55,752 nucleotides of DNA from an uncultured Eubacterium sp. Lineage in GTDB: Bacteria; Bacillota; Clostridia; Lachnospirales; Lachnospiraceae. The notes under the pieces were generated by a model. That model was not told where the DNA came from, made no database searches, and saw only the letters and a list, made by a program, of their open reading frames with translations. Location of the stretch: contig CANDJC010000008.1 of NCBI GenBank assembly GCA_947384955.1, forward strand, positions 1 through 55,752. Direction: 5' to 3'. Of the stretch, positions 19,764-41,224 are shown piece after piece. The translations under genes were made by a program, and so were the position numbers. Position 1 is the first letter of the stretch. Each line of letters begins with the position of its first letter.

Positions 19764-19855
19764 AATCGTATACCTTTCAAAAACATTAACTGTTTATTTT
19801 CTCTGCCCATATTACAGTTTCAAACCCCCAAAAGCCCCATGTCCCTTTCAGAACT

Positions 19856-20482
19856 TTATTCATTTTTCTGCTGCGATTCTCCAATACCCCCCCAAAGCCA
19901 GCTGTACACTGGTTTATACTGCTGTCTGGCAAAAATAATCTTCATATTATTTTTCTTTAATATTTTTAGGACATCTTTGTAGGAAGGCAGCCATATATGT
20001 GTTGGATCATCATAAAAATTGAGTGTTCCTTTCCGGCTTGGAAATGAAACACTCTTCTCACATGGAAAAGCCAGGTAAAGCTTTCCGCCCTGTTTTAAAA
20101 CAGCGCAGACTGCCCGCAGCGTTTCCACAGGCTGATTGCAATGTTCAATATTATGATTAGAAATAACAGCATCAAACTTTACTTCTATACTGCGAATTGT
20201 CTCTGCAAACTCAGACGGTGCCGCAATCATATATCTGTCTGCATGCTTTAAAGATTCCTCTGAATTGTTGTAATCTCCTACATCTATTCCATAATACTCT
20301 ATATCCGGCCTCCACTTTTTTGTTCCAAGCGGGCTGTTATTACCGCATCCAACATCCAGTATTCTCGCTTTTTCAGGAAGTTTTAAAACAAAGGCCTGTT
20401 TTCCCCATGGTACCCGGATGAATTTATATTTTATCAGATGATACAGCCAGTTCTTTTTTTCTCCGCACGATATACTTAACAT
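19856..20482 (-). CDS. SAM-dependent methyltransferase, C-terminus altered by a poly-G frameshift
   Basis: 208 aa as it stands. It is a class I methyltransferase with SAM motif ILDVGCGNNSP near 40-50 and SNHNIEH near 108-114; it probably methylates a sugar or lipid-linked glycan. Near the 3' end a run of seven G (19893-19887) puts the tail into a frame reading GGIGESQQKNE-stop. With nine G, translation would continue to 19786 and give an ending GFWGFETVIWAEKINS. A methyltransferase remnant at 36.9-37.15 kb ends YYGFETVIWAKKN and aligns without gaps to the nine-G version, so nine G is probably the ancestral ON state. The current allele may be inactive or altered. Confidence 0.85.
   Translation of the reverse strand: MLSISCGEKKNWLYHLIKYKFIRVPWGKQAFVLKLPEKARILDVGCGNNSPLGTKKWRPDIEYYGIDVGDYNNSEESLKHADRYMIAAPSEFAETIRSIEVKFDAVISNHNIEHCNQPVETLRAVCAVLKQGGKLYLAFPCEKSVSFPSRKGTLNFYDDPTHIWLPSYKDVLKILKKNNMKIIFARQQYKPVYSWLWGGIGESQQKNE
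19887..19893 (-). repeat. Poly-G tract (G7) in methyltransferase gene, out of frame
   Basis: Seven G on the coding strand, followed by TAT. The C-terminus shared with a homologous remnant in the same locus is restored by nine (or six) G. Candidate slipped-strand switch. Confidence 0.8.
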
Positions 20483-20537
20483 GAAAAATCTAATCCCCCA
20501 TTCTATTCCTGCATATAAGCAGACTTGCTTTTCTCTG

Positions 20538-21695
20538 TCATCTTAATGCCTCTTTCAATGACTGAACCGTCATCTCTATCTCATCCTGAGTAATGTATGG
20601 ATGTATCGGCAGACACAATACTCTGTCACACAGTCTTTCTGTGACCGGGCAGTCTGCAGCCGATGAATAAGTGCCTGCAAATGCCCCCTGTTTGTGCATA
20701 GGTTTTACATAATAAATCATAACAGGAATACCGGCTGCTTTCATATGTTCCATCACTCTGTTTCTGTCAGCTGACCAGGGCAGCTGTACTGTATACTGCG
20801 CCCATGAAGAATAGCAGCCTTCCGGCACTACAGGAAGTATCAGACCCTCAATACTGCTCAGCTGTTCTGTATACCAGCCCGCTGCCTGATTCACAGCATC
20901 CAGCTCAAATTCCTTAAATGCCTGCAGTTTTGCCAGAAGGACTGCTGCCTGAACCGTGTCCAGACGGCTGTTCCTGCCTATGCGGATATTATCGTATTTA
21001 TCATCTGCATGTTTTCCATGAACCGCAAGAGAGCGGCAGATTTCTGCAATTTCATCATCACTGGTAAAAATGGCACCGCCATCCCCGTAGCATCCAAGCG
21101 GCTTTGCCGGAAAAAACGAAACCGTGGAAATATCGCCAAGGCTGCAGGCCCGCCTGCCATGGTACATGCCCCCAAATCCCTGTGCGCTGTCCTCCAGCAG
21201 AAGCATGCCATGTTTCACACAGATACTGTGAACAGCATCATAATCAAACGGAAGTCCGAACAGGTTCACGGCCACAACGGCGCGCGGCCGGTATCTGCCT
21301 TCTGCCTTCACGGCTTCCACAGCCTGTTCCAGACTGGCTGCATCCATGTTATACGTATCCGGCCTGACATCCACAAAAACCGGAACCGCCCCGGCAGCTG
21401 CAGGACACTCCGCACTGGAGAAAAAGGTAAAGTCCGGCACAAACACCGCATCCCCTCTGCCGATTCCATATGCCGCAAGCGCAATGCTTATCGCATCCGT
21501 GCCGTTGCCGCAGCTGATGCAGTGCCTGGCTCCTGTGTATTCCGCCAGCTTTTGTTCAAGCAGGCTGACCTGCGGCCCGGAAATAAAATGAGCCGAAGAT
21601 ATCACCTCGGCAATACACTTATCAATATCATCTTTCAGTTTTTCATACTGCCTCTTTAAATCCCTAAATTCCACGCCCTGTACTGCCTCCTGCAT
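20538..21695 (-). CDS. DegT/DnrJ/EryC1 sugar aminotransferase (WbpE-like)
   Basis: About 385 aa. A PLP-dependent transaminase that puts an amino group on a keto-sugar nucleotide. The PLP lysine is in SFFPAKPLGCYGDGGA, the phosphate-binding stretch is SCGNGTDAISIAL, and LLEDSAQGFGG provides the ring-stacking/Asp region. I place the start at 21695, because the longer frame (from 21761) overlaps the upstream coding sequence by more than 50 bp. With WbpA-, WbpB- and WbpD-like genes in the locus it would act at C3 of a UDP-GlcNAc-derived uronic acid. Assignment to that pathway is by context. Confidence 0.86.
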   Translation of the reverse strand: MQEAVQGVEFRDLKRQYEKLKDDIDKCIAEVISSAHFISGPQVSLLEQKLAEYTGARHCISCGNGTDAISIALAAYGIGRGDAVFVPDFTFFSSAECPAAAGAVPVFVDVRPDTYNMDAASLEQAVEAVKAEGRYRPRAVVAVNLFGLPFDYDAVHSICVKHGMLLLEDSAQGFGGMYHGRRACSLGDISTVSFFPAKPLGCYGDGGAIFTSDDEIAEICRSLAVHGKHADDKYDNIRIGRNSRLDTVQAAVLLAKLQAFKEFELDAVNQAAGWYTEQLSSIEGLILPVVPEGCYSSWAQYTVQLPWSADRNRVMEHMKAAGIPVMIYYVKPMHKQGAFAGTYSSAADCPVTERLCDRVLCLPIHPYITQDEIEMTVQSLKEALR

Positions 21696-21708
21696 GTTTT
21701 GCTTAATT

Positions 21709-22272
21709 CTAATAATAAAGCGCAGACTGTATATATGCGTCAATAATATCAGGAATTCCACAATAGTGAAACCCGTGCTTTTTTACAGCACAAAGCATCT
21801 GCCTGTATGAAGTTCTTCCATAAAGATCATCTTTTCTCTCTTCATTCAATGCTTTGATATCACAGCGCGCTTTGTTTAACCACCGGAACACACCAGTGCT
21901 TTTTAATATGCGTTTTATCTTTGTATGCTTTAGCTCTCTGTTTTTTTCCAGATTCTCATGAACAAAACCAGCAATTGGATTTAAATAATGAATCATGTGA
22001 TATGTCTGCAGATACCTGTTTCTCAAATAAGAAAGAGGAACCAGCATCCAGAATTCACATAATTCTCTTTCCCAGAACGGCATTTCCCATTCAAATCCAA
22101 GCCATTCTATCTGTTTTGTTTCATTCATGATATATTTGCTCTGCCTGTTATTCCATTCCCATCTCAGATACTCTCTGATTACTGTGTCTGCATCCATAAT
22201 CTTAGGAATCTTTTTTATCCATTTTGATACTGCCTTACAAAATACCCCCCCAATCCAAACTATAATGCGCAA
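21709..22272 (-). pseudogene. C-terminal half of asparagine-synthase-like enzyme, frame-separated (phase-off)
   Basis: Open frame of 187 codons with no ribosome binding site at its ATG. From about codon 9 it continues the asparagine-synthase domain encoded upstream: RWEWNNRQSKYIMNETKQIEWLG region, FEWEMPFWERELCEFW, VPLSYLRNRYL. These correspond to the substrate-binding C-terminal part of AsnB-type synthetases. It overlaps the upstream frame only around the G7 tract (22251-22245); adding two G (or losing one) would join the halves into a protein of about 520 aa. I regard it as the displaced 3' part of one gene, not a separate gene. Confidence 0.8.
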
Positions 22273-23269
22273 AACATATATAATCTTTCAGATGCATGCG
22301 TGTCCATTTTTCATCGTTTTCAATATTCGGAATATGGCTTCCGGCTAAAAAATCCAGGGCATCTCCTGTTATGATAATCCCGTCCTGGGGCAGAACGCCT
22401 TTATTTTTCAGATGTTCTATTGCTATATCTGTCTGTATTCCAACAACAGCATCTCCATACCATGTTTTTTCAAAATAATCAGTATTCTTTATCCTAAAAT
22501 CAATCACTTCCCGCGCTATTCCCTCTGAATATTCTGCAAAATACCACGGAAATCCAAGACCTTCTGCCACTTGCTTTGATATTTCTGCTTCTTCATTTCC
22601 CTTTTGTCCATATGAAAAGCAAATGACATTCTCATATCCGAGCCTTTTTAGCATAACTGCATTTGTTCTTGAATCCATTCCCCCGCTTAACGGAATCAGC
22701 GCTGTCTTCCCCATTAATCTGTCTGTCAGCTTCTCATAAATCCTGACCAGACATTTATCATATTCTTCAGCCCAAAAATCTATCGTTCTTTTTTCTTTTG
22801 GCAGCTTATATTTAAGTTCAAAATAATGATGCCTTTCAATTTTACCGTTTTCTTTTCTAATCCGGACCGTTTCTCCCGCTTCCACTAAAAAAACTTTTTC
22901 ATATACAGTTTCATTTTCAGTTACATAGCCAGTCTTTTTCAGCTCGTCCAGATTGCTTTTATTGATACCTGCTTTTATCTTTTTTGCAATCTCTTTCGCA
23001 TTATCTCCGGCATATATTTTATTTCCAGATACACTGTAAAACAAGGGGACATTCCGCACAGCATCACATGCCATCTGAAGTTTATTGTCATCCTCAGCTA
23101 AAACTGCAAAATATCCTCCAGAATATGACATCTGCTCTAACGCCTTTTCAAAATTTTCATTAAATTTGCTTATGTCGAATTTCGAACTGGTATACAGCCT
23201 CACTCCTCCCTGCTTCTGTTCCCGTCTGGTATTGATATTTCCAAAACTATATTCCACTTGAAATTGCAT
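22235..23269 (-). CDS. Asparagine-synthase-like amidotransferase, truncated at a poly-G tract
   Basis: The N-terminal portion of an AsnB-family enzyme. A degenerate glutaminase-like domain comes first, then the PP-loop ATP pyrophosphatase domain with SGGMDS (in LIPLSGGMDSRTNAV) and a DALDF motif. The start at 23269 follows AAGGGAAGG, and the mature N-terminus is M-Q-F: the nucleophilic Cys2 of class II glutamine amidotransferases is absent, so glutamine hydrolysis is unlikely. The frame ends early (DWGGIL-stop) just after seven G. In this locus it may amidate a uronic acid, as relatives do in other glycan loci. That role is inference. Confidence 0.83.
   Translation of the reverse strand: MQFQVEYSFGNINTRREQKQGGVRLYTSSKFDISKFNENFEKALEQMSYSGGYFAVLAEDDNKLQMACDAVRNVPLFYSVSGNKIYAGDNAKEIAKKIKAGINKSNLDELKKTGYVTENETVYEKVFLVEAGETVRIRKENGKIERHHYFELKYKLPKEKRTIDFWAEEYDKCLVRIYEKLTDRLMGKTALIPLSGGMDSRTNAVMLKRLGYENVICFSYGQKGNEEAEISKQVAEGLGFPWYFAEYSEGIAREVIDFRIKNTDYFEKTWYGDAVVGIQTDIAIEHLKNKGVLPQDGIIITGDALDFLAGSHIPNIENDEKWTRMHLKDYICFAHYSLDWGGIL
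22245..22251 (-). repeat. Poly-G tract (G7) in asparagine-synthase-like gene, out of frame
   Basis: Seven G on the coding strand, followed by TAT. Seven or eight G leads to an early stop; six or nine G joins the two halves of the enzyme. Candidate slipped-strand switch, here OFF. Confidence 0.85.
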
Positions 23270-23282
23270 AAAAGCCTTCCCT

Positions 23283-24137
23283 TCATACACTGCAAATCTG
23301 TACCGGTATACCCGATTGTGTCCTTAACCACTCAGCATACTGTTCCATAAATGAATCCGAAGGAATGATTTCCTTCAGTCCTTCTTTTTTTATAGAAATA
23401 TATTTATCCCTTCCCATAATATGGCCTTTTATCAGCTCAGTTTTTACAGGACGATATTTACAAATCAATTCCAGTATTCTGTCCATATTCGATGCTGCAT
23501 CCGTATATCCTTTAATTACCGGAATGCGAAAAACAATTGCTTTTTTCTGATTTCTACAGCTCCTCCATGAAAAGACTCTGTCCAGATTACGTATATAAAT
23601 CTCCAAATCTCCTCCCAGAAGTCTGCTGCACATTACCGTATCCAATACTTTTATATCTATATAAAACAGTTCTGCATATTTTAAAGCCGTTTCTACCTGC
23701 TTCTCATTTGCAAACAGACTTGTCTCCACTGTCTGATGAATTCCCTCTGATGCCAGCCGCAGCATCAGGGGTTCCAGCTTCTGTACCTGGAGCAGCGGCT
23801 CCCCTCCAGAATAAGTAATACCTCCCGGCATTTCTTCAAGACTAGTTTTCGTATATTCGCTGCTGCGAACTTCTCCAGGCACTGTTTCTGATTCATAATA
23901 AGATTTATCCTTCATTACCTCTGTATACAGCTCATCACACGAAATAAAATAACCATATACCCCTTTTCGTCCCTTTATTTCATAATGCTGTCTGGATGGC
24001 TCTATATTTTCCGGATTACAGCACCAGGGACACCGCAGCCGGCAGCCTTTAAAAAAAACCGTTGTTCTGATTCCAGGCCCGTCGTGCAGAGACATCCGCT
24101 GAATATTGGTAACCAATGGAAAATTTTCCTTATTCAT
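23283..24137 (-). CDS. Radical SAM glycyl-radical-enzyme activase
   Basis: About 284 aa. The radical SAM cluster motif CxxxCxxC is in KGCRLRCPWCCNPE, the SAM-binding GGE is in GITYSGGEPLLQ, and the family opening MSLHDGPGIRTTVFFKGC is typical of PflA-type activases. It should abstract hydrogen from the glycine of a partner glycyl radical enzyme, here the one at 26.7-28.8 kb. The region between the radical SAM motif and GGE has almost no cysteines, so the extra ferredoxin-type clusters of many eliminase activases are absent. I prefer ATG 24137 (eight bases overlapping the upstream gene); in-frame ATGs at 24155 and 24179 are possible. Confidence 0.9.
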   Translation of the reverse strand: MNKENFPLVTNIQRMSLHDGPGIRTTVFFKGCRLRCPWCCNPENIEPSRQHYEIKGRKGVYGYFISCDELYTEVMKDKSYYESETVPGEVRSSEYTKTSLEEMPGGITYSGGEPLLQVQKLEPLMLRLASEGIHQTVETSLFANEKQVETALKYAELFYIDIKVLDTVMCSRLLGGDLEIYIRNLDRVFSWRSCRNQKKAIVFRIPVIKGYTDAASNMDRILELICKYRPVKTELIKGHIMGRDKYISIKKEGLKEIIPSDSFMEQYAEWLRTQSGIPVQICSV

Positions 24138-25284
24138 ATATCTGTCTGCTTTCATATATTCTTCTGATGTAGCTGTCAAAATCAGGCGTATCCCATTTCA
24201 CGTCTTTTATATTCTCTAATGAAATATCTGAAAAAGAATCGCATATTACAGCATATCCCAGACTTGCTTTCTTTTCTATTAAGATATTTTTCCCCCGGCG
24301 TTCGACGGGGACTACATGTGCAAGTTCATACTCATAATATCTGTGAGGTATATTTACCTTATCAAATTTCGTAACCTGTGCGCCTTCCATATGCGCATGC
24401 AAAATTCCTATGTCATATTTGCTCAGCGTAAAATATGCATCCATACGATGATTCACGAAGTCCAGGCTTTGTTCAATTATAAAATCTTCATTACAGTCAG
24501 AAATTTTTTTATATAAATTCCTTCCGTCATGTTCAACAATATGCCCGGCATGAAGATGCACCACAATTCCTGCTTCCAAGAGCTCCTTAATAATCGGAAT
24601 ATAATACAGTCTTCCTCCGCTTCTGGCATCATTTGAATCTGAAAGCACCCTTCCAGCAAGAATTACTGCATGAATTCTGCCATCCTGTTCAGAATATTTA
24701 GGAGAATATCTGATTGCAGTACGAAGTCCTTTTCTCCGTACATCTTCATCAAGTCCGAATAATAACTTTTTTCCTGAAAATATATCTCTGTATTTTTTTT
24801 CATAAAAAGCAGCATTTACTTTATCATTTAAAACAATAAGGTCTGCCTGTTTGAAACACTTTCGTTCGAGAAAAGAATAGCATGGCCTTGTTTCTTTTTG
24901 AGCTCTCGTAAGTCTATTTTTGAAGCCAAAAATCACTGTTAAAAATGCAGATTCATCAAAATCATTATAGCTGGAATGAATGGCATCAAAGTAAATATTT
25001 TTCACAGATTTTATAAAGGATTGATTTATGATTCTTATAAACTGTAACATGATATACGAGATACAGTCCAGGAACTGATACCTGTCTGTATGAATTAGAA
25101 TTCTGTATAAAAGCCTGTTGATTTTCTTATGGTTCGGAAATTTATGATATATAATCTGTGAATGATTTAATTCCGTTTCATCACAAAAACATACCACATG
25201 AATTTCAGAAAAAATATTCAATGCATCAAGCCATCTGTCTTTTGGTAAATTCAGCGTTCCGATTTTTAGTAATACTCTTTTCAT
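24130..25284 (-). CDS. Glycosyltransferase (GT-B-like)
   Basis: 384 aa, soluble. It has the pattern of a two-domain GT-B transferase: N-terminal acceptor half, then HAVILAGRVLSDSND and GGRLYYIPIIKELLEAGIVVHLHAGH where GT4-type donor domains begin, and a C-terminal IPHRYYEYELAHVVPV region like the nucleotide-sugar site. The acidic EX7E pair is not clear, so the family is uncertain. It overlaps the flippase gene by 4 bp (ATGA), showing translational coupling. It probably adds one sugar of the repeat unit; donor and acceptor are unknown. Confidence 0.72.
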   Translation of the reverse strand: MKRVLLKIGTLNLPKDRWLDALNIFSEIHVVCFCDETELNHSQIIYHKFPNHKKINRLLYRILIHTDRYQFLDCISYIMLQFIRIINQSFIKSVKNIYFDAIHSSYNDFDESAFLTVIFGFKNRLTRAQKETRPCYSFLERKCFKQADLIVLNDKVNAAFYEKKYRDIFSGKKLLFGLDEDVRRKGLRTAIRYSPKYSEQDGRIHAVILAGRVLSDSNDARSGGRLYYIPIIKELLEAGIVVHLHAGHIVEHDGRNLYKKISDCNEDFIIEQSLDFVNHRMDAYFTLSKYDIGILHAHMEGAQVTKFDKVNIPHRYYEYELAHVVPVERRGKNILIEKKASLGYAVICDSFSDISLENIKDVKWDTPDFDSYIRRIYESRQIYE

Positions 25285-26744
25285 TTCTCTTTGCTTTTCC
25301 TTACAGGTTTTATTATTTTTTCCGCTGCTGTACTTAAAAGTCCAATAAAGAAGTCATCATGTATCACTGCCAGCATGACACAGTAAACTGCTGCCCCCGA
25401 AATAACCATAACTGCAGTATTTAAAACAGACGGGTAAAAAAAGACGTTTTCCATGCGTATTACTCCAAGCATCGTCATCCCCGCAATCAGGTATTTAGGT
25501 ATATGCCTTACAATATCCCGGCAGCAAAGTTCATCTCTGACAATCATAATCTGACTGACAGCTATCACTGCCTCAGCTGCCACTGATGCAGCTGCCGCCC
25601 CTATCGAAAACATTTTCGGCACAAATAATATATTCAAAACCGCATTAACAGCTAAGCCTAAAAACACCGTAGCTGTAAACAGACTCTGCCTTTGTGTAGG
25701 TATAAAATACTGAACTCCTGTCACATTATTTACCCCAATCGCAAGAATCAGGAAAGCAAGAATTTTGATTAATACATTTACCTTTTCATATCCCTGTCCA
25801 AAAAACCACGGAACCAGATTATCTGATACCCCGGTCAGACCCAGGCATAATGGAATTCCCAAAAACCAGACAAATCTGTAACTTCTATACATATACTGCC
25901 TGATTCTTTCCGAATCGTTCTGCATAAAATAAAACCCTATTCTTGGAACCATAACGGTTCCAAGTGATGTAAGCAGTGTAAGGGTCATCTTTGAAATTTT
26001 TACAGCCTGTTCATAATATCCATTTTCAATTCCTGACGAATCTGCCATGCCAAGCATCGTTTTATCCAGCATTGTATAAATACTGACCGCAACAGTCGGT
26101 ACAAAAAGTGAAATAACAGATGCAAAATCATGAAAAGGCTTTATTCTTTTCCGCTCCGGTCTGTCTACATCATTCCATATAAACATCCATAATGATATAT
26201 TTCCAGCCGCCGGCAGCAGTGTTATGCCAAATGCATATAGAAGCATATCGTCACGGCTACGGACAAACATAAATATAAAAATAATTCCCGCAATTTTAAA
26301 TAAAGCATTTTTTCCTATTATTTTTGAAAAATCCTCAAGCCCCTGAAACAGCCATGTTACATCCAGCGCTGCAGCCACAATATTAAGAGCCATCATGATA
26401 CAAAGCTGACTGCCCTGTCTGATTACAATTGCATAATACATATAAAACAGCAGACACACCGATGAACAGATTATCCTTAATGCAATAAGATTCCAGAAAA
26501 TTTCAGTCCGCCTTTTTCTGTCATTCTGATAATAGGATATCTCCCTTGCTCCATAGGAACTGCTTCCTAATGCAGCAAACATTACAAAATAAGAGGCTAT
26601 CGCTGATTCATAACTTACTTTTCCTATATTACCAGCGCCAAGCACTCTGGAAATATATGGCGCTGTAATCACAGGAGTCATAATAACCAGTATCTGGTAT
26701 GCTGTGTTATAAATATAATTTTTTTGAATACTTGTATCAGACAT
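25281..26744 (-). CDS. Wzx-type polysaccharide flippase
   Basis: About 487 aa with 12-14 predicted membrane spans. It matches the polysaccharide transporter/MATE-like family: YNTAYQILVIMTPVITAPYISRVLG near the N-terminus is the family hallmark, followed by YSYESAIAS-like and SYGAREIS motifs. It would flip the undecaprenyl-linked repeat unit to the outer face of the membrane. I choose the ATG at 26744, which overlaps the end of the glycyl radical enzyme gene by 8 bp; the frame opens at 26765. With the Wzy-like protein at 35.7 kb it defines a Wzx/Wzy-dependent pathway. Confidence 0.9.
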   Translation of the reverse strand: MSDTSIQKNYIYNTAYQILVIMTPVITAPYISRVLGAGNIGKVSYESAIASYFVMFAALGSSSYGAREISYYQNDRKRRTEIFWNLIALRIICSSVCLLFYMYYAIVIRQGSQLCIMMALNIVAAALDVTWLFQGLEDFSKIIGKNALFKIAGIIFIFMFVRSRDDMLLYAFGITLLPAAGNISLWMFIWNDVDRPERKRIKPFHDFASVISLFVPTVAVSIYTMLDKTMLGMADSSGIENGYYEQAVKISKMTLTLLTSLGTVMVPRIGFYFMQNDSERIRQYMYRSYRFVWFLGIPLCLGLTGVSDNLVPWFFGQGYEKVNVLIKILAFLILAIGVNNVTGVQYFIPTQRQSLFTATVFLGLAVNAVLNILFVPKMFSIGAAAASVAAEAVIAVSQIMIVRDELCCRDIVRHIPKYLIAGMTMLGVIRMENVFFYPSVLNTAVMVISGAAVYCVMLAVIHDDFFIGLLSTAAEKIIKPVRKSKEK

Positions 26745-28761
26745 ATTGTTTCGCAGTTTTCTCACTTTCCATTGTTCTTTTTATCAGCATCTCCTTATAC
26801 TGTTTTGGCAAATCAGCAAAATATGCGCTGAATCCCCATACTCTTACAATCAGGTTCGGATACTTCTGTGGATGCCTGCTTGCTTCTATCAATTGTCTGC
26901 TGCCAGTAACATTTATCTGTATCTGAAATACTCCAGCTGCAAGACCAGTTTTAATGATTTTCTTAAATTTAGTAAAATTTTCTTCCAGAAATGCAGGCGA
27001 AATAATCAGGTCTGTAACATTTCCATTATGACAGAAACCGCTATAGTCCAGTGCCGCAGCAAAATTAAAAATCTGCGTATAAGGCATCCCTCTGCCAGAA
27101 GATATATGAACAGAAAGAGGACATTCCTTAAGCCTTCCATCCAGGGTTGCTCCGCATGCATACCCGGCTGTTACATAAGATGGTGAACTAAAACCGATTT
27201 TAACCCGGCCGCCATAACAGCTTCTATATTTTTTGCATATATCTGCTGCACACCGCATCAGATAGTTTACCAGCCAGACAGTCTCGGAACTATCTGTACC
27301 GAAAAAACGCTCTTCCTCTAATGCTTCCCTGATATCTCCGTATCCGGCAAAATTTAACTGAGCAGCTTCCTTTAATTGCTGTAATGAAAAATCTTTGCCT
27401 TCAAACACCAGTTTCTTAATATTCATCAAAGAATCAACTGCATTTGCAGTTCCGACAGCCAGGATACCATAATCATGGTAAACCGCTCCTCCTTCCGCCA
27501 TATCCTTTCCGCTTTCCGCACATCCTTCCGTAAAGAGCGTCATCAAAGGATTTTTTTCCCACCTGATTTTATCAATATTTGAAATCGCCCTTTCCGTTTC
27601 CTTCTGCAGCATATGGACAAATATGTTCAGAACCTCCTGAAAATTTCTGCATTCAGTAAAGGCTTCACTTGAATATGTTTCTACCATTGCGCGTGCAAAA
27701 TTAACATCCTCCATATTTCCTTTTCCCCAGGATTTTCCAAAAATCAGCGGCTCCCAGCATGAACTGGTAATGTAATTATATGCATCATCCTTCTTATAAC
27801 CGTAGTCCTGCAGGCAAGGCACGATCCTGTCATCATTTGCCAAAAGCGGACATCCAATCCCCGTTTGAATGGTCCTTAGTGATAACTCAAGCAAATCCTC
27901 AGGCATTTTAGCAGAGGTTCTTAAAACAATTTTAGGATCAGGAAGTAATTTATTTTTTAACACCTCTATAAACAGATAGGTCAGATTATTGCAAAAATAG
28001 CTTCCATCCGGTCTTGAGCCTCCTAAAATTATAATCTGCCCGGTATCTCCTTTAATCTGAGCACTCTTATATTCATAAAATCTATGAAGTTCATCATAAA
28101 AATCACTGATAACAGTAAACGATTCATCATTTATTTTACAAAAAACAGCATCATTCAAAATCCAGTCCAGCCTTCCGAGACCAACATGTCTGTGCCCCGT
28201 CTGCCAGAAAAGAGACGACCAGAACAGCACTCTCTGCAATGCCTCTTCTAATGTCCGTGCAGATGCATTCAGCATATTTAAAAAATAATTTCGGGATTTG
28301 ATTAACTGCGCATCCTCTCCGAATTGCTCAATATTTTCATCAATCCGGGATACAATCCTGCAAATATACTGCCGCACCATAGCAAGCAGCTTTCTGTCTG
28401 ACTGGTAAACAGAATTATTCCCCAAAGAATATTTGTTTTCAAGTTCGGCAAGAGAATTATGGATGATCAGGCTATAATCAGGTGAATGTGTGTCATTTAA
28501 TAATAAATGGGGATATCTGTACAGCCCTGTATCAATCCAATGCTGATATCTTTTTCCCCTTTTTATACTTATCCGGATACTGTTCAAAAGGCTTTCATAC
28601 TGAACCAGTATATTTTTATTAGAATAACACACTCTTTTTTGTGTTTTCTCGGATTCTGGCAGACATGTATATTTACTGCTCGCAAAATATCCTTTAGCAG
28701 CACATGTTTTCTGCCACATTCTGGAATTTCCTATCACATTTTTTACTTTGTTGATTATCAT
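26737..28761 (-). CDS. Glycyl radical enzyme of eliminase type in a glycan locus
   Basis: 674 aa. The glycyl radical motif is at the C-terminus (VRVWGFSAYF, G643). The active-site loop is SSCWEP, giving the thiyl C335 and E337. A C-x-E pair is the arrangement of dehydratase/lyase members (glycerol and diol dehydratases, choline lyase) and not of pyruvate formate-lyase, which has Cys-Cys. GIGCPLLANDD (301-311) and GATLDGRLK (537-545) are further family motifs. The protein is about 100-150 residues shorter than common members, mainly before the active site. An activase gene lies 2.6 kb downstream in the same transcription unit. Position in a glycan operon suggests it modifies a sugar or polyol precursor; the substrate is unknown. 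Confidence 0.92.
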   Translation of the reverse strand: MIINKVKNVIGNSRMWQKTCAAKGYFASSKYTCLPESEKTQKRVCYSNKNILVQYESLLNSIRISIKRGKRYQHWIDTGLYRYPHLLLNDTHSPDYSLIIHNSLAELENKYSLGNNSVYQSDRKLLAMVRQYICRIVSRIDENIEQFGEDAQLIKSRNYFLNMLNASARTLEEALQRVLFWSSLFWQTGHRHVGLGRLDWILNDAVFCKINDESFTVISDFYDELHRFYEYKSAQIKGDTGQIIILGGSRPDGSYFCNNLTYLFIEVLKNKLLPDPKIVLRTSAKMPEDLLELSLRTIQTGIGCPLLANDDRIVPCLQDYGYKKDDAYNYITSSCWEPLIFGKSWGKGNMEDVNFARAMVETYSSEAFTECRNFQEVLNIFVHMLQKETERAISNIDKIRWEKNPLMTLFTEGCAESGKDMAEGGAVYHDYGILAVGTANAVDSLMNIKKLVFEGKDFSLQQLKEAAQLNFAGYGDIREALEEERFFGTDSSETVWLVNYLMRCAADICKKYRSCYGGRVKIGFSSPSYVTAGYACGATLDGRLKECPLSVHISSGRGMPYTQIFNFAAALDYSGFCHNGNVTDLIISPAFLEENFTKFKKIIKTGLAAGVFQIQINVTGSRQLIEASRHPQKYPNLIVRVWGFSAYFADLPKQYKEMLIKRTMESEKTAKQYV

Positions 28762-28764
28762 TTT

Positions 28765-29352: not shown

Positions 29353-29551
29353 TATATCCGCCTTCTCCACTCTTCTTATTTCTTTTGCCGGAATACCTGT
29401 CCAGCCTGGAAAGTTTTGCCGTATCCAGTTCATTTTCTTTTTTTATCCATAATATGCTATCTTTTCTGGGGCGGTTCAGACTGCTTGCTATTTCTTTTAC
29501 TGTAACAAATTTATCTGATGCATGATTATGCATAACCGTCCGCATAACTGG
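29353..29551 (-). other. Intergenic stretch with possible gene debris
   Basis: About 200 bp between the WbpD- and WbpB-like genes, unusually long for this operon. Two minus-strand frames look protein-like: FVTVKEIASSLNRPRKDS (about 29500-29450) and, in another frame nearer the WbpD start, GWTGIPAKEIRRVEKAD. Neither has a clear start with a ribosome binding site. I suspect remains of a lost gene but cannot name it. Confidence 0.3.
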
Positions 29552-30637: not shown

Positions 30638-30652
30638 TTTCCGATTCCCTTC

Positions 30653-30835
30653 TTACAAATACTGCATAACTTCATATTCCTTTACAATAGATTCCATATC
30701 CGTAATATTAGATTTCATATGCCGATATCTATAAATATTTCCATGATTAATAAAGCGCAGTACACTTTCATGAATATCTGATTCCTTATCGTTATACCAA
30801 AAAATTTCTCATAATCTGTATATGTAAAATCCATC
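30653..30835 (-). pseudogene. Small frameshifted gene or remnant (about 60 aa)
   Basis: From ATG 30835 the frame reads MDFTYTDYEKFF, then meets a T6 run. One extra T would continue it as WYNDKESDIHESVLRF and on to TAA at 30653, ending KEYEVMQYL. As written, the frame after the T-run stops early. Both halves look like real protein. It may be a small gene broken by a 1-bp deletion, or the tail of a lost larger gene. I recognise no family. Confidence 0.45.
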
Positions 30836-30849
30836 ACATACCCTTTTCT

Positions 30850-32166
30850 TTATAAAACCTCTATATTATCACGATATATAAACGTACTCATAACATTCTT
30901 TGTATCAAAAATAATCTTCGCATTCTCCTGCACCATCTCATAATCTACGTTATGATGTGCTGCTGTAATCATCACCAGGTCAGCCCAGGATACCGCATCC
31001 GGCGTCAGTGCCTCTATACTCTGTGCACTCTGGCCATATATACCGGCAAACTCCCGCACCCAGGGGTCATAATATCTGACCTGTGCTCCTTCTGTGCGCA
31101 GTTCTTTCATAACACGAATCGCCGGTGATTCCCGGCAGTCATCTATATCATTTTTATATGCCACGCCGAGCATCAGCACTCTGGCTCCGTTTACTGCCTT
31201 TTTAAAGCGGTTTAATATATGCCTCACACGTTCCACACAGTATTCCGGCTGGCTGTCATTTATTACCATAGAATTTTCTATCAGAGTCGTGTGAAATCCA
31301 TATTCCCTCGCCTTCCATGTAAGATAATACGGATCTAACGGAATGCAGTGTCCCCCAAGCCCCGGACCTGGATAAAACGGCTGAAACCCATATGGCTTTG
31401 TTTTTGCTGCATCAATAACTTCCCACACGGAAATACCCATCCTGCTGCAGAGACGGGTAATTTCGTTAATCAGCCCTATATTTACATTCCGGTATGTATT
31501 TTCCAGTATCTTTTCCATTTCAGCCACGGCAGGCGATGACACCGTAAATACTTCTCCATCCAGTACAGCCCGGTACATCGCGCTGATAACCTGTGCGGCA
31601 TCCTTTCCAACAGCTCCTACCACCTTTGGAGTATTTTTCGTTTTATATATAAGGTTGCCAGGGTCAACACGTTCCGGACTGAAACCTAAATAAAAGTCCC
31701 GGCCGCATGTAAGACCGGAACCTTTTTCTAATATCGGTTTGATAAATTCTTCTGTAGTCCCTGGATAGGTCGTGGATTCTAATACCACCATTGTACCAGG
31801 CTTTAAATACTTCGAAACTGTTTTGGCAGAATCTCTTACATAACTGATATCCGGTTCCTGATGCAAATCCAGCGGAGTCGGAACACAGATTGCAATAAAA
31901 TCTGCTTCACTGATACGTGAAAAATCAGATGTCGCCTGCAGCATGCCGTTTTTCACTAATTCAGATAAATCACCGCCAGCAACATCCCCGATATAATTAA
32001 TCCCCTGATTCACTTTGTCTGTTTTTGATTTCTGAATGTCAAAGCCTATCGTTTTAAACCCGGCCTTTGCCTTTTCCACTGCCAGAGGAAGACCGACATA
32101 ACCTAGTCCGATTACTCCGGCAATAATACTTTTTTCTTTGATTTTTCTTAACAACTCTGTTTTCAT
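30850..32166 (-). CDS. UDP-N-acetyl-hexosamine 6-dehydrogenase (WbpA family)
   Basis: 438 aa. NAD-dependent oxidation of C6 of a UDP-N-acetylhexosamine to the uronic acid. The Rossmann start is AGVIGLGYVGLPLAVEKAKAG, the central helix carries KILENTYRNVNIGLINE, and the catalytic cysteine is in GLGGHCIPLDPYY. SPERVDPGN is typical of the UDP-GlcNAc/ManNAc dehydrogenase branch. The start at 32166 gives an ATG that overlaps the FkbM stop (TGATG), a translational coupling; the frame extends 15 bp further without need. It feeds the WbpB/E/D-like steps. Confidence 0.9.
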   Translation of the reverse strand: MKTELLRKIKEKSIIAGVIGLGYVGLPLAVEKAKAGFKTIGFDIQKSKTDKVNQGINYIGDVAGGDLSELVKNGMLQATSDFSRISEADFIAICVPTPLDLHQEPDISYVRDSAKTVSKYLKPGTMVVLESTTYPGTTEEFIKPILEKGSGLTCGRDFYLGFSPERVDPGNLIYKTKNTPKVVGAVGKDAAQVISAMYRAVLDGEVFTVSSPAVAEMEKILENTYRNVNIGLINEITRLCSRMGISVWEVIDAAKTKPYGFQPFYPGPGLGGHCIPLDPYYLTWKAREYGFHTTLIENSMVINDSQPEYCVERVRHILNRFKKAVNGARVLMLGVAYKNDIDDCRESPAIRVMKELRTEGAQVRYYDPWVREFAGIYGQSAQSIEALTPDAVSWADLVMITAAHHNVDYEMVQENAKIIFDTKNVMSTFIYRDNIEVL

Positions 32167-33011
32167 CAGTCTGACTCCCAATATCCTAATAAAATATCTG
32201 GTAAACTGCTGTTATTTTTTTCATCTAAATGCGTCGGAAAGAAGCGGCCTGATTTTTCAAATTTTCTTCCATTCCGGTTAACATACGTAACCTCTAATAC
32301 ATTCGGAATGTTTCTGTCCTGAAACGGAATTGAAAAACTGCCGTTTGAACCATGAACATGCACCAGCTGATGATTTTTATTCAGATTTATCAGCGAGTTC
32401 AGTATTTTCTCACTCTTATTAAAATCTAACAGGCCATGCAGTTCCATTACAATCTGATCAAACTGGTTCAAAATTCCGGCATCTATTGACGATAAAACAT
32501 CCCATTCTGCCCCTTCTACATCCATTTTTAACAGCATATTCCTTTCACTGGAATGGCCGTTTGATTTTAATAATTCCTTCAGGGTTTTCAAATCTTTCCT
32601 TTCACAGCCTTCTTTGCATATTCCAGTCTTTTTCCATATAAAATTTTTGTTATATGATGGCAGCTTTTGGATTGTGTGGTCATACATATACACTTTGATG
32701 CCTTGTTTCTTCGCAAAAAAAGAATCCCAGGATACATCATCACAGATACCAAAGCTATATGCTGTTTTTTTACCTGAAAAATCATTCAGCATGACATAAC
32801 CGCCGTCATAATGCCGGCCTGCCCGGATATACCCCCCCCCGGTCACATTTTTGATTTCAAGTAACGTTATTAACTTCGACAGATAACTTTTTATATCATC
32901 ATTGCGAAGCAGCGGTCTGTATTCCGCACGAATACGCCCTAAATTGACGCTATATCTTATATCCCTGAATGTATGCCATATTTCTTTCACAATAAACACG
33001 AAATTTCCCAT
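32166..33011 (-). CDS. FkbM-family methyltransferase with in-frame poly-G tract
   Basis: 281 aa. FkbM-type SAM methyltransferase: GRHYDGGYVMLND and AYSFGICDDVSWD near the SAM site, then LLKMDVEGAEWDVL, the family's acidic signature. Such enzymes O-methylate sugars in surface glycans. Codons 58-60 are a run of nine G (32840-32832) that reads Gly-Gly-Gly-Tyr and leaves the gene in frame. Gain or loss of one or two G would truncate the protein at about residue 60, before all catalytic motifs. It therefore seems ON in this DNA and switchable. Confidence 0.87.
   Translation of the reverse strand: MGNFVFIVKEIWHTFRDIRYSVNLGRIRAEYRPLLRNDDIKSYLSKLITLLEIKNVTGGGYIRAGRHYDGGYVMLNDFSGKKTAYSFGICDDVSWDSFFAKKQGIKVYMYDHTIQKLPSYNKNFIWKKTGICKEGCERKDLKTLKELLKSNGHSSERNMLLKMDVEGAEWDVLSSIDAGILNQFDQIVMELHGLLDFNKSEKILNSLINLNKNHQLVHVHGSNGSFSIPFQDRNIPNVLEVTYVNRNGRKFEKSGRFFPTHLDEKNNSSLPDILLGYWESD
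32832..32840 (-). repeat. Poly-G tract (G9) in FkbM methyltransferase gene, in frame
   Basis: Nine G on the coding strand, followed by TAT, encoding GGGY at residues 58-61. It lies upstream of the catalytic motifs, so length changes would silence the gene. Confidence 0.85.
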
Positions 33012-33052
33012 TTGATACCTCCGTCATATCCGTTTTACACAATTTTTCAGCA

Positions 33053-34426
33053 TTATATGCCGGCACAATTACAGATATCTCTTTCATGCATTTCATCCTT
33101 ATTTAAATGTCTTTGAATCACCGCATCCATCTTTTTTGCAATTTCTGCATAAGAATACTGTAAAACATACGATTCATCTCTTGTAACCGATGTATATCCC
33201 TGTGCTTTCCACTCTTCATATTTTTGCAAAATATATGATTTTAAATAAGGAAATGTCTCAGAATCCCTGCATGTTTCATAACAGCATCCGCCCAGCTGAT
33301 TCATATGCCTGCTCGGATAGCTATACGCCACATCACCTGAAAGTGTGTAGATAACCGGCTTTTTCATCATCATGTATTCATACATTTTTCCGGTCCAGTC
33401 TATTTTCTGATATCTGGTGTTACGGCTCATCTGCAAAAGAATTGCGGCACTGCGCTGTTTTTCCAAGACAGCAGACCGGCTGACAAGCCCGTGGTCATGA
33501 AATATCTCAGATACACCTTCTTCTGCAGCCTGTTTTTCTGCCATAAAACCTCCTTCGCCGAAAAAATCAATCGAAATATCATTTCTGTCTAATCTATTTT
33601 CAGCTGTAAGCTCACGAATGGCTCTGCATACTGGTTTCATATTGTTCGCCGGATACATGGTACCTGTGTATACAATACAAAACCGGTCTGATTTCAGCGG
33701 CGGAAGGCATTCCTCGAAATCATACCCGTTTGTAATCGTTTCTCTGGGCACATAAGACGGCGTATTTGTTTTCATTCTGCTGCTGGCCCGTAATATTACA
33801 TCTGCGTTTTTACAGTATTTATAAAGGTTCCTTTTATGTCTTTGATAAGATAAAGGTGTGTCTTCTTCACAGGCATACGGATCACGGAAATCTGCAATCC
33901 AGACAATCTTCGGATTTTCTTTTTTTAATCTGCCAGCTGCTATACTGCTCCAGAAAGGCCCATTGCTGGAAATAATGACATCATACGCCTGCAAATTCAT
34001 TGTTTTACAAAAGTTTACAATATTTTGTGCCCACAGCATGTCCAGAATATCTAATGCAAAAATATAAAATTCTTTTTTCATCTTTTTAGCAAGCGTTACT
34101 GGTCTTTCGTGAATTACCTCTGTTGACGGGCCTCCGTATTTTCTGCTTCTTTGAAATCTTTTTCTTAATGTATAATACAGCTTTAGCAATAAATTCAGCC
34201 TGACTTCGTAACAATGGCTGATATATTTCAAATCTCTTTCAAGCAGTTCATCTTTTTTACTAAGATGAATTAAACTGTTTTTATCATAAAAATTTCTGGT
34301 TTCCGTCAGCAGACTGATATCATAGCCGCCCAGCTTCGTTAAATATTTTGCTATTTTAGTCCACCTGACAGAGCCTATTCCCTGCTGGGGTGCAAAATAT
34401 TTAGCCAAAATCAATACTTTATACAT
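33053..34426 (-). CDS. Glycosyltransferase family 4-like
   Basis: 457 aa, soluble GT-B. The N-terminal domain starts KVLILAKYFAPQQGIGSVRW, the common opening of exopolysaccharide GT4 enzymes. The donor half includes FCIVYTGTMYPANNMKPVC and, near the C-terminus, GKMYEYMMMKKPVIY, which aligns with the family's nucleotide-sugar E-x7-E region in part. The N-terminal acceptor half is longer than usual, with a Lys/Arg-rich patch that may contact the membrane. Transfers an unknown sugar in repeat-unit assembly. Confidence 0.85.
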   Translation of the reverse strand: MYKVLILAKYFAPQQGIGSVRWTKIAKYLTKLGGYDISLLTETRNFYDKNSLIHLSKKDELLERDLKYISHCYEVRLNLLLKLYYTLRKRFQRSRKYGGPSTEVIHERPVTLAKKMKKEFYIFALDILDMLWAQNIVNFCKTMNLQAYDVIISSNGPFWSSIAAGRLKKENPKIVWIADFRDPYACEEDTPLSYQRHKRNLYKYCKNADVILRASSRMKTNTPSYVPRETITNGYDFEECLPPLKSDRFCIVYTGTMYPANNMKPVCRAIRELTAENRLDRNDISIDFFGEGGFMAEKQAAEEGVSEIFHDHGLVSRSAVLEKQRSAAILLQMSRNTRYQKIDWTGKMYEYMMMKKPVIYTLSGDVAYSYPSRHMNQLGGCCYETCRDSETFPYLKSYILQKYEEWKAQGYTSVTRDESYVLQYSYAEIAKKMDAVIQRHLNKDEMHERDICNCAGI

Positions 34427-34456
34427 GCATCATCCGCCTCCTTAAAAACGCATGTT

Positions 34457-35659
34457 TCATTTTGCCATTTCTTTTATCATGCCCAGATAGGATTCAGCCG
34501 ACTTCTCCAGCTGAAATTCCTTTTCAATTACAATTCTTCCATGCATGTTTACGCTGTCAGAATCATAAAGTCTGCGGATTACTTTCACATAATCTTGCGG
34601 ACTGCTGCAATTGTAATAATCTAAATTTTCAGCGGCCGGTATTCCTTCTATCCCGATTTTATTTGTTAAAACCGGAATGCCTGCATACATCGCCTCGATA
34701 CATTTTACTTTAATTCCGGCACCCAGGCTGAGCGGAGCTACAAAGCACATTCCTTCGGCAAACCAGCGGTCGATATTTTCTACATAACCAGTCATATGAA
34801 TTTTATCACTTTCTAAATCACCCGCTGTTTCCCTGCCGCCTTTTCCTATAACCACAAATTCACAATCAAGGTCTGATAAAAGCGGCATCACATACCTGGC
34901 AAACCACCTGACTGCTGTGATATTTTCTTTTCGCTTCATATAGCCAAAATATATGATATTATGATTCTTTCGGTGATGCTGCATTCTGCTCCTGTGATAA
35001 TACGGAGCAATAACCTTTATTTTCGAACGGTTTACCTTATATCTGCAAAGCAGGTTTCTGTCTTTTTTATTTTGGACAACAACCCTGTCGCATATTTCCA
35101 GAGCACGGATTTCTCGATGAAACATATTTGCGGCTCTTAGATTTTTGTATTTTTTCCGAATAAGACTCTTTTCCTGTGCAGTTTCCCTTGCATAGGCCTG
35201 AAATGTAACATCGTGCTCTACAGCTGCAAAATTTGCCTTTGGAAATAAAGCGCGGATCATCTCTGCATACAGGACCACTGCTGTCCATTCTAAGATTACC
35301 ACATCCGGCCTGTATCCTTCTTTTTGCATGCGCACCAGTCTTTTTATCATCTCATGCGCTAATCGCGAAGATAATGCATCTCCATATTTATAAAAAGGAT
35401 TGATTTTCGAATGAATGCTCAGACAGTTCCATATAAATTTTTTCATTCCTTCTGGAACAACAATCAGCTCCATTCCTGAATCATAACGGCTTTTATCAAA
35501 ACAGGCCTCTTCCTTTTTTGAACAAAATGTAACCAGTCTGATATGTACAGATTTATCTTTCGCAAAATAAGACTGATAAAAATTAACCGTCTTCCCGCCG
35601 GCATGAGATACTCCGTCAAATGGTGTGCACAAAGAAATCCAAAGCAGTTCCACAATCAT
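34457..35659 (-). CDS. Glycosyltransferase family 4-like
   Basis: 400 aa, GT-B type. It opens VELLWISLCTPFDGVSHAGGKTVNFY, with the glycine-rich acceptor loop. The C-terminal donor domain has IIYFGYMKRKENITAVRWF, FVVIGKGG, and APLSLGAGIKVKCIEAMYAGIPV, whose spaced acidic residue fits the GT4 donor site. Spacing to neighbours is about 30 bp, consistent with one operon. Sugar specificity cannot be read from the sequence. Confidence 0.87.
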   Translation of the reverse strand: MIVELLWISLCTPFDGVSHAGGKTVNFYQSYFAKDKSVHIRLVTFCSKKEEACFDKSRYDSGMELIVVPEGMKKFIWNCLSIHSKINPFYKYGDALSSRLAHEMIKRLVRMQKEGYRPDVVILEWTAVVLYAEMIRALFPKANFAAVEHDVTFQAYARETAQEKSLIRKKYKNLRAANMFHREIRALEICDRVVVQNKKDRNLLCRYKVNRSKIKVIAPYYHRSRMQHHRKNHNIIYFGYMKRKENITAVRWFARYVMPLLSDLDCEFVVIGKGGRETAGDLESDKIHMTGYVENIDRWFAEGMCFVAPLSLGAGIKVKCIEAMYAGIPVLTNKIGIEGIPAAENLDYYNCSSPQDYVKVIRRLYDSDSVNMHGRIVIEKEFQLEKSAESYLGMIKEMAK

Positions 35660-35688
35660 TCTCCTCTAAATACTATAATCCTTCTTCT

Positions 35689-36954
35689 TTAAACAAGCGC
35701 AAACAGCACTAACAGCATTGACCAGGAACCCCGGATTGTCAGATAAGTAATTCCTTCAAATAATACTGCCGTTACCATATAGGCCCATTTATTATTCTTA
35801 TTTCGGATAATGGCTTTCACAGCATAAAAATAATAAATGAAAGCTCCGAAAATACCATTCCCTACGATAAGCGTAACCACATCTGTCTCTGGATTCCATC
35901 CAAGCCCGGATGATACCGGATTTCCATAAAATATCGAAAACCGGTATCCGGCAGAAAAATAGCCGCACCCAAAAATTACATTTAAAATATTTTCTTCTTT
36001 CAGCACATTCAGCAGGTTCAGATAATAGGAAGCATGAACACCTGTACTGGAATCTGCATCTGAAATATCCGTTATATTTTTAAGTCCTGCCAGAATTCCG
36101 CTAATCCTGTTACTCAGGCTGTCTCCTGCAAATAAAATGCCAAAACATGCCACCGCCATAAATACCAGACAGAAAGCAAATAACCGGGATTTCATTTTCA
36201 TCTTTCCTTTAAACAGCATAAGAAACCAGTAACAGATTACGCCCGCAAATGCAACATAGCCAGACCTGGATGTAGAAAGCAGAATTGCAAAAAGAAAGAA
36301 TATTCCAATGGTATACTTCTTTTTTTTCATCCAAAGAATAAATCCCACAATCATAATCAGCGAAAAATTCGCTGGTTCCCAGCCCAGCCCTGTCATCCTG
36401 ATAACCGCATCATTCGGTCCGCCTACAAAATGGTCAAACCGCACCGTATTTCCTCCTACAGTCACATGCAGCAGTTCTGAAAAAATAACCGTATTTAATT
36501 TGATGCGGAAAAGAGCATAAACGATAATTTGCAGATATCCCCATATCATCTGAATCAAGCTTCCGATTTCCATTCCTTTTAAAAAGCTTTCGCGTACCTG
36601 CTTCATTTCATAAGAATTGTAAGCGCAGGACAAAAATCCAAAAAGCATAATATACTTAAACGCCAGTTTGAGAAGCTGCATCCTTCCAGGCAGGTCAATG
36701 ACAAGAAAAGACGCTGCAAAAGACAGCATAATACTTACCAGAAACGATGCAAAGAAAGAAAAGTACCCGCTCTTTGTACTGATACGCAGTCTGCATCTGC
36801 TGACTGTCAGCTTATATACAATCCATACAGCAAGAATATAATTATAAAACGCTCCTATCCCAAAATTGAGAGCACCCATACTGCAGGTTGCCCCTACCAT
36901 TGTACATAATCTTAATTCAGTTTTTCTTTGCCCAGATAACAGTTTCAAATCCAT
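35689..36954 (-). CDS. Wzy-like O-antigen/polysaccharide polymerase
   Basis: 421 aa with about 10-11 hydrophobic spans (for example GYFSFFASFLVSIMLSFAAS and a large outer loop around residues 285-330). The pattern is that of O-antigen polymerases, which join flipped repeat units. Sequence identity in this family is always low, so the call rests on topology and on the Wzx, Wzz and glycosyltransferase genes around it. Start is uncertain: ATG 36954 overlaps a methyltransferase remnant by 38 bp and lacks a clear ribosome binding site; ATG 36900 is an alternative. Confidence 0.8.
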   Translation of the reverse strand: MDLKLLSGQRKTELRLCTMVGATCSMGALNFGIGAFYNYILAVWIVYKLTVSRCRLRISTKSGYFSFFASFLVSIMLSFAASFLVIDLPGRMQLLKLAFKYIMLFGFLSCAYNSYEMKQVRESFLKGMEIGSLIQMIWGYLQIIVYALFRIKLNTVIFSELLHVTVGGNTVRFDHFVGGPNDAVIRMTGLGWEPANFSLIMIVGFILWMKKKKYTIGIFFLFAILLSTSRSGYVAFAGVICYWFLMLFKGKMKMKSRLFAFCLVFMAVACFGILFAGDSLSNRISGILAGLKNITDISDADSSTGVHASYYLNLLNVLKEENILNVIFGCGYFSAGYRFSIFYGNPVSSGLGWNPETDVVTLIVGNGIFGAFIYYFYAVKAIIRNKNNKWAYMVTAVLFEGITYLTIRGSWSMLLVLFALV

Positions 36955-37153
36955 AATAAACCCAGGTACCTATATACACTTTCTTTTTTATCTTACTAAC
37001 CGGTTCCATCAGATATCCTGCAAGCCAGTATATGATCGGTTTGTAAGGATTTTTACATTGCAGTATTTTCATGCCATCCTTATACAGCCTTAAAATAACT
37101 TTTTCTGCATCAGGAAGATATCTGTGCGTACAGTCATCATAAAAGTTTACGCC
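36917..37153 (-). pseudogene. C-terminal remnant of a SAM methyltransferase
   Basis: A 78-codon open frame without a start, squeezed between the 3' end of the dehydratase gene and the Wzy-like gene and overlapping both. It begins VNFYDDCTHRYLP, continues DGMKILQCKNPYKPIIYWLAG, and ends GTWVYYGFETVIWAKKN. This aligns with the last third of the methyltransferase at 19.8-20.5 kb (NFYDDPTHIWLP, NNMKIIFARQQYKPVYSWLWG, and the poly-G-restored GTWGFWGFETVIWAEK). It is a 5'-deleted relic, useful as an internal reference for the frame of the other copy. Confidence 0.75.
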
Positions 37154-38111
37154 AGTATTGCAGCATGTCTGAAACCGTCTGCTCCATCGAAATCTTCTGT
37201 GACCACCCTGTATGACGCTTTAGCTTTTCAGTATTTCCTGCAATTACCTTTTCATCTGAAGGTCGTAAAAGACATTTATCTGTTATAATTTCCAGTTTAT
37301 GGCTGATTTCCGTTTCAATCATTGCAATAATATCCCGCATCTGATAAATATGTTCGGATGAAATATTATAAGCTTCACCAGGCATGCCTTTTTCTGCCAG
37401 CAGTACCAGCGCACGGATTAAATCCCTCTGATCCAAAATTGCTCTTCTCGTTTCCAGATTGCCTGCACGAATCCGATAACTGCCATCTCTCTCTGCTTCA
37501 ACTGCCCGATAAGTAAAATCAGATGTTGCATCGTTCACTTTCCGAACACCAGTCGAGTTAAAAATACGTGCCCTGATACAGCGGATATTGTCATTTTTGT
37601 AATACTGATAAGCCAGAAAATCCTGGGCGGCTTTGCTTACTCCATACGGATGCAGCGGCTTTAACTTTGCTGTTTCCTTCACAAAAACTTCGTTACCTTT
37701 AAGTTCATTCAGCGTTTCTCCATACTCAGCACTGCTGCATGCCACTACTACCACAGGGTCATAGCCTGCCTTCACTTTTCTTGTATCTTTAACTGCCTCA
37801 AATACCGATATCGTACCGTTAATATTTATATCCATTGTCTCAAACGGCCGCTCCCAGGAAATCTGAGGATAAGACTGCGCCGCCAGATGATATATCTGCT
37901 CCGGCTGGAACTCTTCAATAATTCTTCCAATGCTCCTCGGGTAACGGATATCACATTCTAAAAGCTTTGCTTTTGCTCTGATTTCATTCAGGTTTACCGT
38001 TGGCTTATAATAAGTCCCAGTTACCTGATACCCCCCCCCGGAGAAATTTCCAAAATATTCCACCATATGGGAACCAGCCATCCCGCCTGCACCAGTAATC
38101 AATACTTTCAT
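37137..38111 (-). CDS. GDP-mannose/GDP-heptose 4,6-dehydratase-like SDR enzyme with poly-G tract
   Basis: 324 aa. Extended short-chain dehydrogenase fold: NAD(P)-binding GAGGMAGSHMVEYF near the start, AAQSYPQISWERPFETMDININGT, and the catalytic tyrosine in HPYGVSKAAQDF. It resembles GDP-mannose 4,6-dehydratases, including DmhA-type enzymes that act on GDP-heptose. The adjacent HddA-like kinase makes the heptose substrate attractive, but mannose cannot be excluded. Codons 25-27 are part of a nine-G run (38039-38031), in frame here; a change of one or two bases would destroy nearly the whole protein. Confidence 0.84.
   Translation of the reverse strand: MKVLITGAGGMAGSHMVEYFGNFSGGGYQVTGTYYKPTVNLNEIRAKAKLLECDIRYPRSIGRIIEEFQPEQIYHLAAQSYPQISWERPFETMDININGTISVFEAVKDTRKVKAGYDPVVVVACSSAEYGETLNELKGNEVFVKETAKLKPLHPYGVSKAAQDFLAYQYYKNDNIRCIRARIFNSTGVRKVNDATSDFTYRAVEAERDGSYRIRAGNLETRRAILDQRDLIRALVLLAEKGMPGEAYNISSEHIYQMRDIIAMIETEISHKLEIITDKCLLRPSDEKVIAGNTEKLKRHTGWSQKISMEQTVSDMLQYWRKLL
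38031..38039 (-). repeat. Poly-G tract (G9) near the start of the dehydratase gene, in frame
   Basis: Nine G on the coding strand, followed by TAT, encoding GGGY at residues 25-28. Any change not divisible by three would abolish the enzyme. Confidence 0.85.
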
Positions 38112-38134
38112 CTGTCATTCCTCCAAAGCACCAT

Positions 38135-41111: not shown

Positions 41112-41224
41112 ATGGCTGCCTCATCTCCCCTCTTCCAGCGTCCGGACAGCCACAGAATAGAACCATGCAGTTCCCCTTCGTCCAGTGTCAGGATATCCAT
41201 CATGTATCAAATTTTGTGCTAAAA

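Follow-up and report, generated by a model that had tools for sequence, protein, structure and literature searches.

Poly-G tracts followed by TAT in glycan genes of an uncultured Eubacterium (Lachnospiraceae): probable phase-variable genes within a genus-wide set

The window that we analysed is a stretch of 55,752 nucleotides from an uncultured Eubacterium sp. of the Lachnospiraceae (genome G000, 5.06 Mb in 271 contigs), and it carries four G-tracts, all within genes of a polysaccharide locus. We think it very probable that these tracts are sites of slipped-strand phase variation (contingency loci) and that they belong to a large phasome of glycan genes that extends across the genus. Slippage at a coding G-run would change the length of the tract and so toggle the gene between a full-length and a truncated protein. 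We infer that the mutation would arise by replication slippage, that it would be reversible, and that it would affect the surface glycan. The targets would mainly be glycosyltransferases, methyltransferases, acyltransferases, and other enzymes that assemble or decorate glycans. In the state captured by the assembly, a dehydratase and an FkbM-type methyltransferase are read through, and another methyltransferase and an asparagine-synthase-like protein are cut short.

The coding strand of the window contains exactly four runs of at least seven G, with lengths of 7, 7, 9, and 9, and each is followed by TAT. An earlier note on this DNA had claimed that these are the window's only G/C runs of that length, and our recount confirms it. 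Pfam also agrees with all four of the gene identities that the note proposed, and minus-strand polysaccharide genes surround all four tracts, which it had placed in a polysaccharide locus. The features are as follows (S-adenosylmethionine is abbreviated as SAM, and G7 means a run of seven G).

19887..19893, minus strand: G7 tract, then TAT (run search)
22245..22251, minus strand: G7 tract, then TAT (run search)
32832..32840, minus strand: G9 tract, then TAT (run search)
38031..38039, minus strand: G9 tract, then TAT (run search)
19856..20482, minus strand: SAM methyltransferase gene, frame broken at the tract, OFF in the assembly (Pfam Methyltransf_23/11 and the frames of homologues)
22235..23290, minus strand: asparagine-synthase-like gene, 5' part up to the tract, OFF in the assembly (Pfam QueC and Asn_synthase)
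21709..22272, minus strand: asparagine-synthase-like gene, 3' part, in another frame (G009 homologue; no Pfam match on its own)
32166..33011, minus strand: FkbM-type methyltransferase gene, open through the tract, ON (Pfam Methyltransf_21, E = 9e-6)
37137..38111, minus strand: GDP-sugar 4,6-dehydratase-like gene, open through the tract, ON (Pfam GDP_Man_Dehyd, E = 6e-52)
37001..37150, minus strand: second methyltransferase copy, a remnant without a tract, with LAGYLMEP at the tract site (homologue comparison)
19074..42394, minus strand: surrounding polysaccharide locus (Pfam)

Two features of these tracts are not random: the TAT after all four of them, and the excess of G9 over G8 across the genome. 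TAT follows just 2.6% of the 537 G5 runs in the part of G000 that we fetched (1.226 Mb). This part was picked partly by the places of GTAT and G9, so TAT and G9 are over-represented within it; the whole-genome counts are unaffected. The whole genome has 73 runs of exactly nine G versus 35 of exactly eight, and it has 31 occurrences of GGGGGGGTAT versus 3 for the reversed control. T immediately follows 53 of the 73 G9 runs (a hand tally), as compared to 18% of the G5 runs.

The fetched part contains 111 runs of at least seven G, of which 57 score as coding. Among the coding runs, 42 are G9, 4 are G8, 4 are G7, and 7 are longer. The next three bases are TAT for 24 of them, TAA for 10, CAG for 5, TAC for 2, TAG for 1, and something else for 15. 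So TA follows 37 of the 57 coding tracts, versus 27 of the 537 G5 runs. A cause at the level of the protein (TAT would give Gly-Tyr) can be rejected because the tracts are not confined to one codon phase: the in-frame G9 tracts divide 12, 12, and 10 among the three possible starting phases, and TA follows 8/11, 9/16, and 11/13 of the in-frame tracts by phase (n = 40). For 29 tracts, the coding score is clear on both sides, and 21 of these are in frame and 8 are out of frame (with lengths from 7 to 11), although C1:41773 and C4:18081, both among the eight, could each represent a pair of separate genes. The earlier note had proposed that each full frame needs a tract length that is divisible by three. 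This rule holds for the four genes in the window and for 25 of the 29 clear cases, but not for the other 4. We do not consider placement on the coding strand to be a hallmark of the system: the G9 runs in the fetched part (n = 68) include 40 sense, 28 unclear, and 0 antisense, and the G5 runs show a bias as well (404 sense, 17 antisense, and 116 unclear).

We also noted the surroundings of several tracts in G000. At L050 6956-7001 (C141), a G11 and a G7, both followed by TAT, are separated by 28 bases close to the end of a single gene. At L039 18081 (C4) and L047 3490 (C42), the tract has a glycosyltransferase domain on either side, which gives the impression that it joins or separates two genes. 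G8-TAT also occurs outside of clear coding sequence at contig ends, at L065 17190 (C6) and L030 66 (C154). These two appear to be a repeated element, as the next 30 bases are nearly the same in both; they are counted among the 31 occurrences above, and they are not in the coding set.

Tract genes are biased towards genes for surface structures. We scanned 47 of the 57 coding-tract genes with Pfam, and 30 matched what we grouped ourselves as glycan-type families (assembly or decoration); 8 had no match and 9 matched other families. The glycan-type set comprises glycosyltransferases, GtrII, GT11, methyltransferases (including 4 FkbM methyltransferases), acyltransferases, MBOAT, NKWYS, sulfotransferase, formyltransferase, TupA ATP-grasp, GDP dehydratase, and asparagine synthase. 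The other nine are DUF362, an alpha/beta hydrolase, two FrhB, DUF6625, a radical SAM/SPASM protein, a PRD antiterminator, and two solute-binding proteins. As a control, we drew 60 random genes from the 205 long frames of contigs with few tracts and scanned 40 of them. Only ABC_tran and AAA_21 had two members each, and the 25 listed families, of 78, included one sugar transferase (Bac_transf).

That tract length sets the reading frame, as the earlier note had claimed, is supported by the homologues of the two G7 genes. Its comparison of states also stands: two genes are read through at G9, and two are broken at G7. At the same site as the G7 tract of the window's methyltransferase, a paralogue in the same genome (C71) has G9, and so does a homologue in G008 (C2); this is a comparison with a paralogue and another species, rather than between strains of one species. 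Related copies therefore do differ in length, which the note had suggested checking. The frames of both C71 and G008:C2 run through the G9 tract into FWGFETVIWAKKK, and they share a conserved C-terminus (FWGFETVIWA), which in the window is no longer in the frame of the upstream part. These homologues argue against the idea that the window's methyltransferase ends properly in its other short frame. Our automated frame caller had called this gene in frame because the downstream frames are short, and we overruled it on the basis of the homologues. (It also missed the C71 paralogue, which is outside the 57 coding tracts.) Similarly, both parts of the asparagine-synthase-like gene align to a single frame in G009, at 32% identity over 293 amino acids and, for the 3' part, 35% over 91 amino acids, and both parts stay open outside the tract. 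The homologue in G009 has a G8-TAT tract of its own, upstream of the aligned part. For the GDP-dehydratase, a scan of contigs found three relatives that are 64-66% identical and have no tract in the gene, and a fourth match at 23% identity.

The pattern extends across the genus. We counted runs in 13 genomes of the genus (G000 and 12 congeners), alongside 28 other genomes. By hand tally, the genus has 388 runs of exactly G9 versus 204 of G8, while the other genomes have 42 versus 74; G9 outnumbers G8 in 9 of the 13. GGGGGGGGTAT totals 100 in the 12 congeners, versus 15 for the control. Elsewhere in the family (297 genomes), the totals are 210 versus 39 (also a hand tally): 205 genomes have none and 55 have one, and G256, G173, G235, G329, G339, and G213 have 7 to 15 each. 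In stretches of six congeners that we fetched near such sites, tracts occur both in and out of frame; in G005, for example, 6 of 8 G9 tracts are in frame and 1 of 5 G10 tracts are. Only 4 of 62 alignments between tract genes have the tracts at the same site (a rough measure), so it seems that tracts have arisen many times.

Outside the genus, other genera of the family carry a related motif. In stretches from five further genera, ATAC precedes the tract at 14 of 24 sites that were selected for TAT. Upstream ATAC is not a feature of the window's genus, as it precedes 2/57 tracts in G000, 0/24 in G008, 0/16 in G009, and 0/15 in G005. In G213 (L197 and L200) and G256 (L208 and L209), G9-TAT or G10-TAT lies soon after the leader-like start of very long open frames, which encode putative surface proteins. 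Several of these tracts are out of frame by a simple count, and most follow ATAC or TAC. In G170, a G9 and a G10 are each followed immediately by TATAAT and are not within a long frame (L203 3583 and L206 3117), which would fit switching by the length of a promoter spacer.

Campylobacter and Helicobacter are not known to have MutS/MutL mismatch repair. The window's genome does not share this trait: MutS_I and DNA_mis_repair were both matched in 12 of the 13 genus genomes, including G000. Neither was matched in G009, whose genome is 96% complete and has 24 G8 runs and one G9 run. The coding tracts of G009 have seven or eight G, and the base before the tract is T in 15 of 16. A link between missing MutS/MutL matches and shorter tracts, which is based on this one genome, is only suggestive, as G8 outnumbers G9 in G001, G004, and G012 despite matches to both families. 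(G004 has only a short MutS frame, and its match to MutL is split.)

There are a number of arguments against phase variation across a large phasome. For the window's species, our data are from one assembly of one strain. The window does not have more tracts than chance would give: under a first-order Markov model of its sequence, 4.1 runs of at least seven are expected on average, and the 201 such runs in 5.06 Mb imply 2.2 per window, so we reject an excess over either, and the enrichment of the locus that the earlier note had asked about was not found. (The model gives 0.37 runs of at least nine, versus the 2 seen.) The 54 runs in the fetched part that do not score as coding comprise 26 G9, 8 G8, 11 G7, and 9 longer, and most of them do not have TA after the tract (AGG follows 12, TGG 7, and TAT 6, with fewer of the rest). 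Of the 30 glycan-type genes, 8 carry a plain methyltransferase domain and 3 fall short of the Pfam cut-off, and there are tracts in genes of other kinds, such as those for the PRD antiterminator and the two solute-binding proteins. G8 outnumbers G9 in 4 of the 13 genus genomes (G001, G004, G009, and G012). Finally, the length peak at nine is sharper than in colonies of Campylobacter jejuni (from excerpts of PMC4965091), and together with the matches to MutS/MutL, this could mean that there is little switching.

Could the tracts have a simpler explanation? Under ordinary decay, the two G7 genes would be permanent pseudogenes, broken where a run is prone to mutation, and the tracts of nine would be no more than tolerated glycine codons. 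The decayed methyltransferase copy at 37001-37150 is consistent with this, as are the mismatch repair genes and the limitation to one strain. But decay does not account for the predominance of exact G9 in most genomes of the genus, for the concentration of tract genes in one functional class, for tracts at different places in homologous genes, or for an asparagine-synthase-like gene whose two parts are both open outside the tract, and we consider it improbable. Alternatively, transcriptional slippage or programmed frameshifting at the G-run could yield two products from unchanged DNA. RNA polymerase can slip on long G-runs, and most of the clear tracts are in frame, both of which would favour this. 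However, the same-site methyltransferase copies differ in the DNA itself (G7, G9, and G9), and because the codon phase of the tracts is even, there is no fixed slippery codon. This seems very unlikely to us.

The tracts could also be artefacts of assembly or sequencing at homopolymers, given that the genome is in 271 contigs and that caution is advised about G-tract lengths in databases (PMC9187656, in excerpt). Yet most of the clear coding tracts are in frame, miscounted lengths cannot produce a bias towards TA(T), and the related motif also occurs in G213 and G170, where the contigs that carry it are 3.5 and 3.8 Mb long. We see almost no chance that artefacts explain the tracts. A different idea is that the tracts are a recognised DNA element: a dedicated factor would act on sites of the form G-run-TA(T), or ATAC-N-Gn-TAT in the family's other genera, and would hold the tract at nine G where mismatch repair is intact and at eight or seven in G009, the one congener with no match to MutS or MutL. 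This is unlikely, in our view. We continue to prefer slipped-strand phase variation. As for the earlier note's interpretation as a whole, its account of tract length and frame and its gene names stand, but it was too narrow and its locus is not enriched. In particular, its 16 glycan states are too few, because the tracts form a genome-wide and genus-wide set.

The locus also encodes a SIS protein, a DegT aminotransferase, a flippase, glycosyltransferases, Wzy_C, a nucleotide-sugar dehydrogenase, a GHMP kinase, a glycyl-radical enzyme, and a radical SAM protein (all from Pfam). The glycyl-radical enzyme (PFL-like plus Gly_radical; 26737-28761, minus strand) seems unusual within a polysaccharide locus, and the radical SAM protein (23283-24179, minus strand), which is also inside the locus, is perhaps its activase. 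C. jejuni makes GDP-heptose for its capsule by a known pathway. The SIS-domain protein (19074-19763), the GHMP kinase (38135-39139), a HAD phosphatase (13432-14058), and the GDP-sugar dehydratase, as judged by their Pfam domains, suggest a similar route here.

How does this compare to known systems? (We draw on excerpts of both of the papers cited here.) C. jejuni NCTC11168 has 29 poly-G/poly-C loci with tracts of at least seven (PMC4965091). In C. jejuni, as in the window's genome, there are dozens of coding G-tracts of at least seven per genome, mostly in surface-modifying enzymes. Tract lengths in its colonies were G8 257, G9 214, G10 431, and G11 77, and flanking sequence was reported to have no influence on slippage (PMC4965091). 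In contrast, the window's genome has matches to MutS/MutL, and TA(T) follows its tracts whatever their codon phase. Among gut commensals, Bifidobacterium breve UCC2003 also has intragenic G-tracts, which switch sortase-dependent pili ON and OFF, and replication slippage was shown there by maximum depth sequencing (PMC9187656). The strain studied has two such pilus clusters, whereas the tracts in the window's genome lie in dozens of genes, mainly for glycans; closer to the pili are G213 and G256, where tracts lie in long putative surface proteins. The gsmA G-tract of Mycoplasma agalactiae and the phase-variable O-glycosylation genes of Neisseria (both named in PMC9187656) are similar in that an intragenic G-tract controls polysaccharide or glycan genes, but those are single or few genes in other lineages. 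For Lachnospiraceae, we found no report of poly-G phase variation among the matches listed in the open-licence full-text literature.

If the tracts switch, then the window's genus holds a large poly-G phasome: a quarter of a single genome contains 57 coding tracts, as compared to 29 loci in all of C. jejuni NCTC11168 (PMC4965091, in excerpt). How tract length is set could be approached through the sharp length of nine G, through the TA(T) context, and through the shorter tracts of G009. If we are correct, the surface glycan could vary from cell to cell, which would bear on phage resistance, on immune recognition, and on the tracking of strains, as well as on glycan genes that are currently annotated as pseudogenes.

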